IMG/VR virus record: IMGVR_UViG_3300036785_000081
Span: 1-24,715 of that record
From: a virus
Length of the DNA stretch: 24,715 nucleotides
Direction: 5' to 3' (one strand)
Made by a program: the position numbers and the translations under genes. Every line of letters begins with the position of its first letter. The stretch's first letter is position 1. Of this stretch, positions 15,941 to 20,228 are shown one piece after another. A model generated the notes under the pieces. The model was not told where the DNA came from, did not search any database, and worked only from the letters and a program-made list of their open reading frames with translations.

Positions 15941-17497
15941 TCAAATCTTCTTCGGCGCAGCGATCGGCGTCGGCGGCGGCACGGCAGCCTGCGGCTCGAA
16001 CTGATTGGCCGTCGGCGCGGCTGCGTTCTGTGTCGCTGGCTGCCCCGGCACGTTGGAGCCATTCGTGCCTGGCGGTGGCAGCGCGGAAGCTCCGACCGGA
16101 CCCCCTGGCGGCAGATTCATCATGTCCCGCGCCTGGCGGATCTTCTGCGGCGACCAGCCGAGCAGTTCCCAGCACATCTCGATCGGCACCGAGAGGTAGC
16201 TACGCATCTGCACCGCCGCCATCACGAGCACCGCGAGCGACTTGGACTCGGGGTCGGCCCAAATGACCTCGGCCTGCTGCGCGTGCCCGCGCTTGGTATC
16301 GCGCAGTGCGAGGAACGCCGTCCGCAGAACCTCTTCCCAGCCGTCAGAGAACGAGAGAATCTTGGCGTTGACGCGATCGACTAGCCCCTGGTCGGCCGCG
16401 TGCATGGCATCGGCCGAGAGGTTGGCGAGCTTGCCTTTGAGGTAGTAGACGGGGGTCTGCGTGATCGCCGCCAAGTGGTCGATGTAGAGATCCAGCGGCG
16501 CGATGTAGTTGTTCACGTCGCCCGCCAAGAACTGACCGAACTGCGTGTCATGCGAGTCCGAGCGCACGATCCGCGTCTGGCCCATCGCGACCTCGACCTC
16601 GCGGTTGGTCAGTTCGCGGCCAGTCTCGTCCACGGCCCGCTCCCAGCCGGTCGCCCACCGCTGCGGGTAGGCGTGGAACTCGCTCGATACCTGCATATCA
16701 AGGCAATACTTGTTGACGGCGTCCTGAATCGGAATCGCCGCTTCGAGATCCGAGCGCCCGCCGTAAAGCAAGTCCGGGTTGTTCTCGATCGGACAGAGCG
16801 GCACGACGCCCATCGGGTTCAGCCCACCGGGGTCGGCATCGTTGCGGGTCCATTGAATCTTGCGCTGCGATACGAAGAAATCGTCGCCGCGACCCTGGCG
16901 CGGGCGCTCGACCGACCGCCACGTATAGACCGCCGTCGGCAGGTAGACCGTGGCGTAGGCGTAGCCGTCGATGTCGTCAATCCACCGCTTGATCGCCGCC
17001 CAGCGTTCCTTGAGGTTGGCCGGGTTGCGGTAGACGTAGCACTGGCTCGCGTGCTCCGGCGTGAGCACCGGCAGCTTGTTGTAGGGATCGAGCGGGTTCG
17101 GCGGCTGGATCAACACGAACGACGTGCCGAGCTTGATCGCGTCGGTGTGGACGATGCGCGACAGCGCGTCCATGCCGTTCGCCTGCCAGACGTTCCAAGC
17201 ATCCACGTCGGCATCGAGTTCCCACGTCGCCGCTTTGGGATCGGGGTCGAACCGGAAGCCTTGAATCTGTAGCCGACTGACCGGCGCTTCCACGACGATC
17301 TTCATCCAGTTGTTCGCCAGCGGCGGGAAGAACCGGGAGAACGCCTCGCGGAACTTCGCAGTCGCGAACGCCAGCCGGTGCTCGCCGTTGAAGTAGTCCT
17401 CCGGCGTCTGGATCGCTGCCACTTGCGCGTCAAGCCGTGGCTCTAGGAATTGCAGCCACGCGGCCGGTGTCAACGCTGGCATATCGGCGAGCGCCAC
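15941..17497 (-). CDS. Portal protein, SPP1 gp6-like
   Basis: 518 aa from GTG 17497; the ATG five codons inside is an alternative, and neither has a clear ribosome binding site. Family-like features are an N-terminal helix with DYFNGEHRLAFA, then NNWMKIVVEAPVSRLQIQGF, GTSFVLIQPPNPLDP, PVLTPEHASQCYVYRNP, VVPLCPIENNPDLLYGGRSD, IPIQDAVNKYCLDMQVSSEF and the stem/crown helices (ADQGLVDRVNAKILSFSDGW). The last ~60 residues are Pro/Ala/Gln-rich and disordered, a common portal tail. The portal forms the dodecameric DNA gate and docks the terminase. Its gene is separated from the terminase genes by a 1.2-kb insert holding a divergent gene and a putative RNA. Confidence 0.88.
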   Translation of the reverse strand: MALADMPALTPAAWLQFLEPRLDAQVAAIQTPEDYFNGEHRLAFATAKFREAFSRFFPPLANNWMKIVVEAPVSRLQIQGFRFDPDPKAATWELDADVDAWNVWQANGMDALSRIVHTDAIKLGTSFVLIQPPNPLDPYNKLPVLTPEHASQCYVYRNPANLKERWAAIKRWIDDIDGYAYATVYLPTAVYTWRSVERPRQGRGDDFFVSQRKIQWTRNDADPGGLNPMGVVPLCPIENNPDLLYGGRSDLEAAIPIQDAVNKYCLDMQVSSEFHAYPQRWATGWERAVDETGRELTNREVEVAMGQTRIVRSDSHDTQFGQFLAGDVNNYIAPLDLYIDHLAAITQTPVYYLKGKLANLSADAMHAADQGLVDRVNAKILSFSDGWEEVLRTAFLALRDTKRGHAQQAEVIWADPESKSLAVLVMAAVQMRSYLSVPIEMCWELLGWSPQKIRQARDMMNLPPGGPVGASALPPPGTNGSNVPGQPATQNAAAPTANQFEPQAAVPPPTPIAAPKKI

Positions 17498-17544
17498 GAT
17501 CGGGAGCGTACTATCTCCGGCAACACGAGCCGAAGGGGAGCCGC

Positions 17545-18309
17545 ATGACCGACATCACCGTCCAGATCGCCAACCCAAACGGCCATGCGGTCACGGTCGA
17601 TCAGAACACCGTCGAAGCGGGCAGCCTCGCCGAGTTCGTCTTGGACAACAGCACCGCCGACGCTTGGGAATGGCTCGAAGCCGACTGCGCCATCGTCCCG
17701 GTCACGCAAGTCGTGGAGCAGCAAGAGGCGGGGTGGATCATCGTCAACGCCACGGCCGACCTCGCAACGCACCCCGGATCAGAGCCAGACGCGCCGTCAG
17801 AACCCCCGGCCATCACCGACGTATCGCCCGACCACGGACCCAAAGCGGGCGGCACGTCGGTCGTGCTGACCGGCTCGGGACTCGCTTCGGTCACGGATGT
17901 GGTATTTGCCGGTACGCCCGCGACCTTCACCGTGGACAGCGACGAGCAGATCACCGCCGTGACGGGTGCCACGCCCTATGAAGGCACCAACTCCGTGACA
18001 GTCTCCGACGCGGCCGGGAACAGCGACTCTGCGGCCTGGACTTACGACCTCACGAAGCCTGCCCCGGCCGCCTGCACGCCCAGCAACGGGCCGGTCGCGG
18101 GCGAGACTCCGGTTTCCGTGACGGGAGAGCGGTTCACTGGCGCGACTGCCGTGCGGTTCGGGATGCAAGACGCCACGGCGCTCGTCGTCGTGGACGACAC
18201 CGAACTTACCTGCACCACTCCCGCTCAAGCCGGGGCCGGTGCGTTCGACGTGTATGTGATCACCCCGGCCGGTGAAGGTACGCTCGGCGCGGGCTTCACC
18301 TACGAATAA
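17545..18309 (+). CDS. IPT/TIG Ig-like domain protein, only plus-strand gene in the window
   Basis: 254 aa; ATG at 17545 with a strong ribosome binding site (AAGGGGAG, 4-nt spacing). Residues 1-85 form a unique beta-rich domain (TVQIANPNGHAVTVDQNTV, VTQVVEQQEAGWIIVNAT). Residues ~88-168 are an IPT/TIG domain (PAITDVSPDHGPKAGGTSVV, then YEGTNSVTVSDAAGNS). Residues ~172-254 are a second one (PAACTPSNGPVAGETPVSV, then VYVITPAGEGTLG). Such Ig-like folds decorate phage capsids and tails and bind cell-surface sugars; there is no signal peptide, so a virion role is likelier than secretion. It diverges from the portal gene with only 47 nt between starts, with a weak -10-like TACTAT at 17509-17514. 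It ends in a terminator, so it looks like a self-contained accessory (moron-like) unit. Confidence 0.85.
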   Translation: MTDITVQIANPNGHAVTVDQNTVEAGSLAEFVLDNSTADAWEWLEADCAIVPVTQVVEQQEAGWIIVNATADLATHPGSEPDAPSEPPAITDVSPDHGPKAGGTSVVLTGSGLASVTDVVFAGTPATFTVDSDEQITAVTGATPYEGTNSVTVSDAAGNSDSAAWTYDLTKPAPAACTPSNGPVAGETPVSVTGERFTGATAVRFGMQDATALVVVDDTELTCTTPAQAGAGAFDVYVITPAGEGTLGAGFTYE

Positions 18310-18697
18310 AGAGAGCCGATCCCAATGTCGGGACCGGCTCTCTTGTGAAGCGCAGCTTGTCGGGCTAACCGGATTGTGGTCTACGGCATGACGAACCAAG
18401 CTGCTCTCCCACTAGGTCAGTTCGCGGAATCTTGCGACCCCCCTTCTGCTTGGGAGCGGGAAAAGTTGGGACTGGACCGGACGGCTCGCCTCTGCTTGCT
18501 CTCCCCCATCGTGGCCACTCCGGGTTGCACTCAGCTTTGGTCTGCCGTCTGTTACCGCTTCACTCGCCGCTTGCCTTCGGGGGCCGCTCACGCGGGGGAG
18601 CTTCATAAAGCCGGGTTTCGCTTGCGCTCACCGACCGTAGGCTCTTGCTCCGTACTCTGGGGGCTTCGGTACTTCGCGGTGGTCCTGTCCTGCACCC
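18304..18697 (-). ncRNA. Putative ~390-nt structured non-coding RNA
   Basis: The minus strand from the promoter at 18701-18728 to the terminator at 18309-18344 has no credible ORF. Several complementary segments are visible in the transcript. GGACAGGACC (18690-18681) pairs with GGUCCAGUCC (18478-18469), one A-A mismatch. CUCCCCC (18600-18594) pairs with GGGGGAG (18507-18501). CUCCCA (18456-18451) pairs with UGGGAG (18411-18406). GCAGCUUG (18404-18397) pairs with CAAGCUGC (18359-18352). Local hairpins are CCGC-GUGA-GCGG (18595-18584), GCUU-UAUG-AAGC (18611-18600, which competes for one base with the CUCCCCC helix) and GGGGUC-GCAA-GAUUCC (18441-18426); GUGA and GCAA are GNRA loops. I do not see RNase P, tmRNA or 6S signatures. 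The 5' end is estimated from the -10 box. Function is unknown; placement between terminase and portal genes may or may not be meaningful. Confidence 0.68.
18309..18344. terminator. Bidirectional hairpin terminator shared by the TIG gene and the putative RNA
   Basis: Arms 18309-18323 and 18330-18344 pair over 15 positions with one A-C mismatch and a 6-nt loop (AATGTC). It starts on the last base of the TIG stop codon. Reading leftward the stem is followed by TTTATT, a usable U-tract, so it is a better terminator for the minus-strand unit; reading rightward only TT follows. Confidence 0.85.
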
Positions 18698-18700
18698 ATA

Positions 18701-18728
18701 ACTATAGCTCAACTGTAGCTAGAGTCAA
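18701..18728 (-). promoter_or_regulatory. Near-consensus sigma-70-type promoter for the putative RNA
   Basis: Reading leftward: TTGACT (18728-18723), 16-bp spacer, TATAGT (18706-18701). Each box differs from consensus at one position. The boxes are AT-rich in an otherwise GC-rich sequence. Transcription would start near the G run at 18697-18695. It lies just downstream of the large terminase stop and is the best promoter I see in the window. Confidence 0.8.
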
Positions 18729-18755
18729 GCCCTGGACGCAGGACTTCGGGAACTC

Positions 18756-20228
18756 TTAGAAGTGGACGGTGGCCCGCTTCGGGACCGCATGGCGCAGCGT
18801 CACCGCCCGGTCGGCCATCATCGCCAGCGCCACCGCCGCGTCGATCCGCTCCTGGCTGCGGCGCTTGGAGATCCGCCAGCCGCCCCGGTCGGTCGGCGCT
18901 GCCACGGCCGAGAGGATCTGGCGCTTTAGCTCGGCGTTGCCGTCGTGGACGATCCGGCGCTCGGTGATCAACTCGTACAGAGTCTCGGACGCCGGAGCCA
19001 TCCGCGCCGCGTTCTGCGGGAACTCGACCATCGGGAAGCCGCGCTCGGCAAGGATCTCGGCCGACTCCAAGAACTGCCACGGGTCGAAGTCACACTCGCG
19101 TAGCTGCGCCTGCACCGACGCCCGCCGAGCGACCTCGCCCCGGATGTCGGCCACGCCGAACCCCGGCCCCTCGTCGTGCGGGATCAGGATGTGGTGCCCG
19201 ACGTGTAGCTGCTCGCCGTGCCACTGGCCCCAGATGATCGCCGCCGAGTCGCGCCGGATCCCGACATCGACGGCCATGTAGCTCGGCTGGCTCGTGTCGA
19301 ACAGCGGACGGCCCCGGCACGCATCCCACTCCCACGTCTTGACCCACGCCTCGTCTGTCTCGGTCCACTGGTTGAGATGCAGTCGCCGGAAGACCGACTC
19401 GGGCAGCCGCTCGTGCTCGTGGCGCAGCACGTCCAGCGTGATCCAGTCCGACGGGTTGGCCTGCTTCCAGACCGACTCGTCGCGGTAGTCGGCTTGGGCA
19501 TCGACCTCGTACCACCAGAACAGGAACCGGGCCTTCCGCATCGCCGCGATCCCGCCCTCGTCGCGCAGCCCGACGCCGCGCTCGTATAGCTCGTGGCAGA
19601 TCGTGTCGCGATCGAACCCGGCCGTCGTAGCCGACACGACGAGCGGATCCAACCGCGCCAGTTGGCCGGTCGTCAGCGCGTAGTAAAGCTCCGGGTTGGC
19701 GTGCGCCCATAGCTCGTCAATCACGACCATGTTCGGGTTCAGCCCGTATTGCAGCGGCGCGTCGGACGCCAGCACCCGGAAGATGCCCCGGTTGGCCTTG
19801 CAGTAGATCACCGACCGCTGCGGCTTGAGCCATTGGCGCAGCAGCGGCGAGGCTTCCACAAAGTCAGTGCTCTGACCGAACACGACCCTTGCCTGATCCT
19901 TCGCCGCCGCTGCCGCGTAAACCTCCGGCGAGTGCTCCGGCGTGCCCATCAGCCCGTACAGCGCGACCTCTGAGCCGGTGGTGCTCTTGCCGTTCTTGCG
20001 AGCAATGCCCAGCAGCGCCTCGCGGTAAACGCGCTCGCCGTTGTCGTAGCGAAGGAACAACTCATCGAGAAACTGGTGCTGCCACGGCTGGTGGATCAGC
20101 TTGTTGCCCGCCCAGCGGCCCTTCGTCTGGACGATGTATCGCTCGCCGAAGCGCCGGACTCGTGCGCCCTCGCCCCGGACGTAGCTACGTCGGGAGTCCG
20201 GCGTCGTCGTCGTCACTGACGACCTCAC
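18756..20228 (-). CDS. terL: Terminase large subunit (HK97-type packaging ATPase/nuclease)
   Basis: 490 aa from GTG 20228; a second GTG at 20216 (residue 5) has a better GAGG at 6 nt and may be the true start. ATPase domain: Walker A GIARKNGKST at 74-83, Walker B MVVIDE at 167-172, coupling motif SATTAG at 199-204. Nuclease domain: MAVDVGIRRDSAA with Asp321 as a metal ligand and RIDAAVALAMM with Asp463 near the C-terminus. The enzyme pumps DNA into the prohead through the portal and cuts the concatemer. The start lies 44 nt inside the small subunit gene. All catalytic motifs are intact and the length is usual, so it should be functional. Confidence 0.93.
   Translation of the reverse strand: MRSSVTTTTPDSRRSYVRGEGARVRRFGERYIVQTKGRWAGNKLIHQPWQHQFLDELFLRYDNGERVYREALLGIARKNGKSTTGSEVALYGLMGTPEHSPEVYAAAAAKDQARVVFGQSTDFVEASPLLRQWLKPQRSVIYCKANRGIFRVLASDAPLQYGLNPNMVVIDELWAHANPELYYALTTGQLARLDPLVVSATTAGFDRDTICHELYERGVGLRDEGGIAAMRKARFLFWWYEVDAQADYRDESVWKQANPSDWITLDVLRHEHERLPESVFRRLHLNQWTETDEAWVKTWEWDACRGRPLFDTSQPSYMAVDVGIRRDSAAIIWGQWHGEQLHVGHHILIPHDEGPGFGVADIRGEVARRASVQAQLRECDFDPWQFLESAEILAERGFPMVEFPQNAARMAPASETLYELITERRIVHDGNAELKRQILSAVAAPTDRGGWRISKRRSQERIDAAVALAMMADRAVTLRHAVPKRATVHF

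Follow-up and report, generated by a model that had tools for sequence, protein, structure and literature searches.

A predicted leftward transcription unit between the terminase and portal genes of a virus with actinobacterial affinity resembles a moron with an orphan payload

Morons were originally defined in HK97 and HK022. Classical morons are inserted between genes that are adjacent in related phages, carry their own promoter and terminator, and encode protein. The insert described here shares the first two of these properties, but its promoter reads no convincing open reading frame (ORF) and its protein gene is on the other strand. In SPP1, the morons, genes 3-5, are located between terminase and portal (PMC6316719), the same junction as that of our insert. 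RNA-seq of the actinophages WC1, D29, and Kampy revealed highly expressed orphan non-coding RNAs, mainly at genome ends; because such unexplained transcripts exist in actinophage transcriptomes, an orphan RNA in the present locus would not be unprecedented (PMC10986025). Those RNAs resemble our candidate, with which they were compared by description only, in being short transcripts of non-coding regions in actinobacterial phages, whereas our transcript is predicted from sequence and lies at an internal junction. The ornate RNAs GOLLD and ROOL, which are often found near tRNA islands (PMC12286853), are likewise long RNAs within phage genomes, and the phi29 packaging RNA invites comparison since the unit lies beside packaging genes.

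We analyzed a 24,715-base virus record, classed as linear and referred to here as the window. Its module, read leftward, consisted of morphogenesis genes: the terminase small and large subunits, an SPP1-type portal, a scaffold, the major head protein, the tail sheath, and baseplate J. The top matches of the portal among annotated phages were actinobacterial (Streptomyces, Arthrobacter, Thermobifida), and the virus appears to be a bacterial virus with actinobacterial affinity. Alignment of the portal against bacterial genomes confirmed no relative, so no host is named. No tRNA was found in the window, and no integrase was noticed. The features at the junction were as follows.

18756-20228, minus strand: terminase large subunit gene (Pfam TerL ATPase and nuclease, PHROG 9)
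17500-18755, no strand assigned: insert of ~1.25 kb separating terminase from portal; close relatives lack it
18701-18728, minus strand: sigma-70-type promoter, TTGACT-16-TATAGT, score 10/12
18304-18695, minus strand: predicted transcript of ~390 nt, a candidate non-coding RNA, bounded by promoter and terminator
18309-18344, minus strand: intrinsic terminator, a hairpin of 16 pairs with a loop of 4 and a short U-rich tail (TATTC), better paired on this strand
17545-18309, plus strand: IPT/TIG-domain protein gene (Pfam TIG, E=5.6e-21), convergent with the predicted transcript
15941-17497, minus strand: SPP1-type portal protein gene (Pfam SPP1_portal, E=7e-26; PHROG 104)

The insert contained the leftward unit and the rightward TIG-domain gene, which converges on the terminator. 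In the nearest relatives covering the junction (L002-L005, L009, L012, and L013; 57-65% identity), terminase and portal were separated by only ~10-45 nt, and the insert thus lies between genes that are adjacent in related phages. The sequence-only reading had correctly placed the unit between terminase and portal but did not mention the plus-strand TIG-domain gene in the same interval. Other members of the portal family carried small genes at this position. L068 (2279-2578) has TTGACA-18-TACACT, a 67-amino-acid ORF with several cysteines whose ATG begins 8 nt after the -10 box, and a palindromic terminator. On the opposite strand, L043 (1987-2212) has TTGACA-16-TATCTT and a 63-amino-acid ORF, without a convincing Pfam match, whose ATG begins 7 nt after the -10 box. 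L037 (2393-2842) has a 149-amino-acid ORF that, judged by eye, resembles recombination endonuclease VII (HNH type). These small genes suggest that accessory ("moron") insertions recur at the terminase-portal junction.

The near-consensus leftward promoter that had been read at 18728-18701 was found there, and TTGACT-16-TATAGT was the only site in the window scoring at least 10/12, under sigma-70 scoring rules. Shuffling the local 455 nt produced a site of this quality in 0.9% of cases, but shuffling the whole window did so in 24%. Transcription would start near 18695-18693. The strong leftward hairpin with a U-rich tail was likewise found at 18344-18309, ~360 nt downstream on the same strand; hairpins with at least 15 pairs occurred in 0.3% of local shuffles. 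Its 16 minus-strand pairs include G-U, where the plus strand has an A-C mismatch, which makes the minus-strand hairpin the stronger one. The TATTC tail is short, and a generic terminator scan missed the element. We scanned 1.2 million strand-bases of the relatives' loci with the promoter and terminator test. Five promoter-like sites reached at least 10/12, two of them in the terminase-portal gaps of L043 and L068. No promoter-terminator pair was found in these loci under the first criteria; when the demand on stem G+C was relaxed, one appeared, at the L068 terminase-portal junction. A dedicated leftward transcription unit in the region 18728-18304, with a promoter and a terminator of its own that are both unusual against local shuffles, is well supported at the level of sequence.

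The sequence-only reading had further proposed that the product is a large structured RNA of ~390 nt with long-range helices and a possible pseudoknot. The segments were present, on the minus strand, as GACGGC (18549-18544) with GCCGUC (18485-18480) and CUCCCCC (18600-18594) with GGGGGAG (18507-18501), but such elements were no more numerous than chance: helices of at least 6 bp numbered 13 against 11.8 in shuffles, long-range helices 10 against 8.9, and H-type pseudoknot combinations 5 against 5.2. At 63% GC, chance alone is expected to supply many of the long-range helices that the eye picks out. The whole interval gave a fold z of -1.8 to -2.3 because the terminator was included. Without it, the fold energy did not exceed the stability of dinucleotide shuffles, as that of a structured non-coding RNA should, but lay at their level (z 0.0). 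As yardsticks, E. coli RNase P RNA (rnpB), comparable to the interval in length and G+C, gave -3.2 and tmRNA (ssrA) only -1.2, so a modest z is compatible with real structure. Rfam searches of the interval, at gathering and relaxed thresholds, returned no family, the hits being confined to miRNA noise at the terminator hairpin. AACCCGGCUU looked similar to RNase P RNA, an idea dropped for want of an Rfam match. The GOLLD model run alone on the interval gave no match, with the controls also silent. A large structured RNA as the product is not supported.

The interval accordingly differs from GOLLD and ROOL in matching no family covariance model, in having no tRNA in the window, and in folding at chance level; from the phi29 packaging RNA it differs in lacking an Rfam match and in not being conserved with the packaging machinery, since it is absent from the relatives' terminase-portal gap and no similar DNA occurred in 30 records. 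Because relatives with the same packaging genes lack the insert, it cannot be a core part of packaging. It is very unlikely that the unit represents a new class of pseudoknotted phage non-coding RNA of ~350 nt, carried as an RNA-only moron between terminase and portal.

Homology searches in related phages, which the sequence-only reading had envisaged as a check on the RNA, yielded no homologue by blastn, nhmmer, or patterns. Among the relatives, neither nhmmer (86 loci) nor blastn (30 whole records) gave more than short matches, and the best one inspected (L088) lay in an apparent coding region. DNA similarity searches in phages and plasmids returned no meaningful match, and the translated interval, used as a query for diverged copies, found no relative. 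Pattern scans found no match to a 22-mer or an 18-mer in viral contigs, nor to a 20-mer in genomes; a 15-mer pattern hit 90 stretches, of which the aligned ones were alike only around the 15-mer itself. Antisense pairing with the start regions of 20 phage genes showed no stand-out target after correction for 20 tests.

Two ORFs were present within the predicted transcript.

18603-18695, minus strand: ORF A, 30 amino acids, GTG 6 nt after the -10 box, a possible leaderless start
18412-18606, minus strand: ORF B, 64 amino acids, ATG overlapping the stop of ORF A (ATGA)

The earlier claim that the interval lacks an ORF held for codon statistics, by which the transcript looks non-coding, but not for these frames of 30 and 64 codons, which overlap by ATGA and run from the probable start site. 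By a codon model fitted to 16 genes of the window (bits per codon), ORF A scored -0.39, under all in-frame 30-codon windows of known genes, and ORF B scored -0.52, below the known-gene range of the phage; GC was flat across codon positions in both. The transcript could be a leaderless mRNA, in which GTG 18695 at the 5' end would open ORF A and the ATGA overlap could allow translational coupling to ORF B. The start lies 6 nt after its -10 box, similar to the 7-8 nt of the L043 and L068 moron ORFs, and a chain as long as ORF A plus ORF B, starting at positions 6-8, arose in 0.5% of shuffles in a post hoc test. The codon test is also weak for imported genes and morons, as the L068 moron ORF scores -0.31 even against its own genome. 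Against this stand the codon scores and flat GC, the absence of a Shine-Dalgarno sequence for ORF B, and the lack of protein homologues for either ORF in our searches. We regard short leaderless peptides as a serious rival reading, though less likely than a non-coding, possibly regulatory, RNA, for which the odds appear a little short of even.

We consider it probable (roughly 70%) that this stretch represents a moron, in the form of an accessory transcription unit that occupies a recurrent terminase-portal insertion site together with an opposite-strand TIG gene. This reading and the leaderless one are not mutually exclusive, since a unit for leaderless small proteins would also count as a moron. 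The unit and the TIG gene would have been inserted together between terminase and portal. The leftward transcript of ~390 nt would be initiated at the unit's own host-type promoter and would finish at an intrinsic terminator that also belongs to the unit. From these two elements we infer that the unit is transcribed and that its RNA could appear even when the late operon is off; late transcripts running from terminase into portal would need to pass the terminator. The payload codon statistics, which are unlike those of the phage's genes, were counted in favor of a moron with a non-coding payload. Counted against the moron reading were the absence of any homologue, and hence of any sign of selection on the payload, the chance-level fold energy and helix count, the short U tract of the terminator, and the use of sigma-70 rules without an identified host together with the 24% whole-window shuffle rate.

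Some of the same observations could suit a functionless spacer, an insertion remnant whose hairpin serves mainly as the terminator of the TIG gene: there is no codon signal, the fold is at chance level, and no homologue was found. This is unlikely, as the hairpin pairs better when read on the minus strand and has a poor tail on the plus strand (TTGTGAAG), and as a near-consensus promoter lies 360 nt upstream on the minus strand; a bare spacer should show neither. The promoter, the ~390-nt leader, and the terminator are all oriented toward the portal and head genes, and the promoter might instead feed these genes as a late-operon leader with an attenuator, antitermination bypassing the terminator. 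Antitermination past a terminator is known from lambda pR'/tR' and the HK022 put sites. However, the insert is missing in close relatives, the antisense TIG gene of ~760 nt separates the terminator from the portal, and no antiterminator gene was identified, which makes this the least probable of the readings.

The unit thus appears to be a moron, a known kind of element, with an orphan payload for which a non-coding nature is likelier than a coding one. For actinobacterial-type phages it supplies, at the level of sequence, one more case of an accessory transcription unit between terminase and portal, a junction at which small genes that start close to their promoters are found repeatedly. Were the transcript to prove both functional and non-coding, the element would qualify as an RNA-only moron.

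The TIG gene had a codon score of +0.26. The best relatives of its protein were Streptomyces IPT/TIG proteins and gp64 of phage Gilgamesh, whose gene is located between the tail terminator and tail assembly chaperone genes. The gene at 17545-18309 on the plus strand runs against the late operon, and no promoter was noticed for it. Elsewhere in the window, a G+C-rich hairpin of 16 pairs without a U tail (GCGGGGGTCTGGGCTTCACGGGTCCAGACCCCCGC; 13904-13870, minus strand) was observed directly 3' of the major head protein gene.
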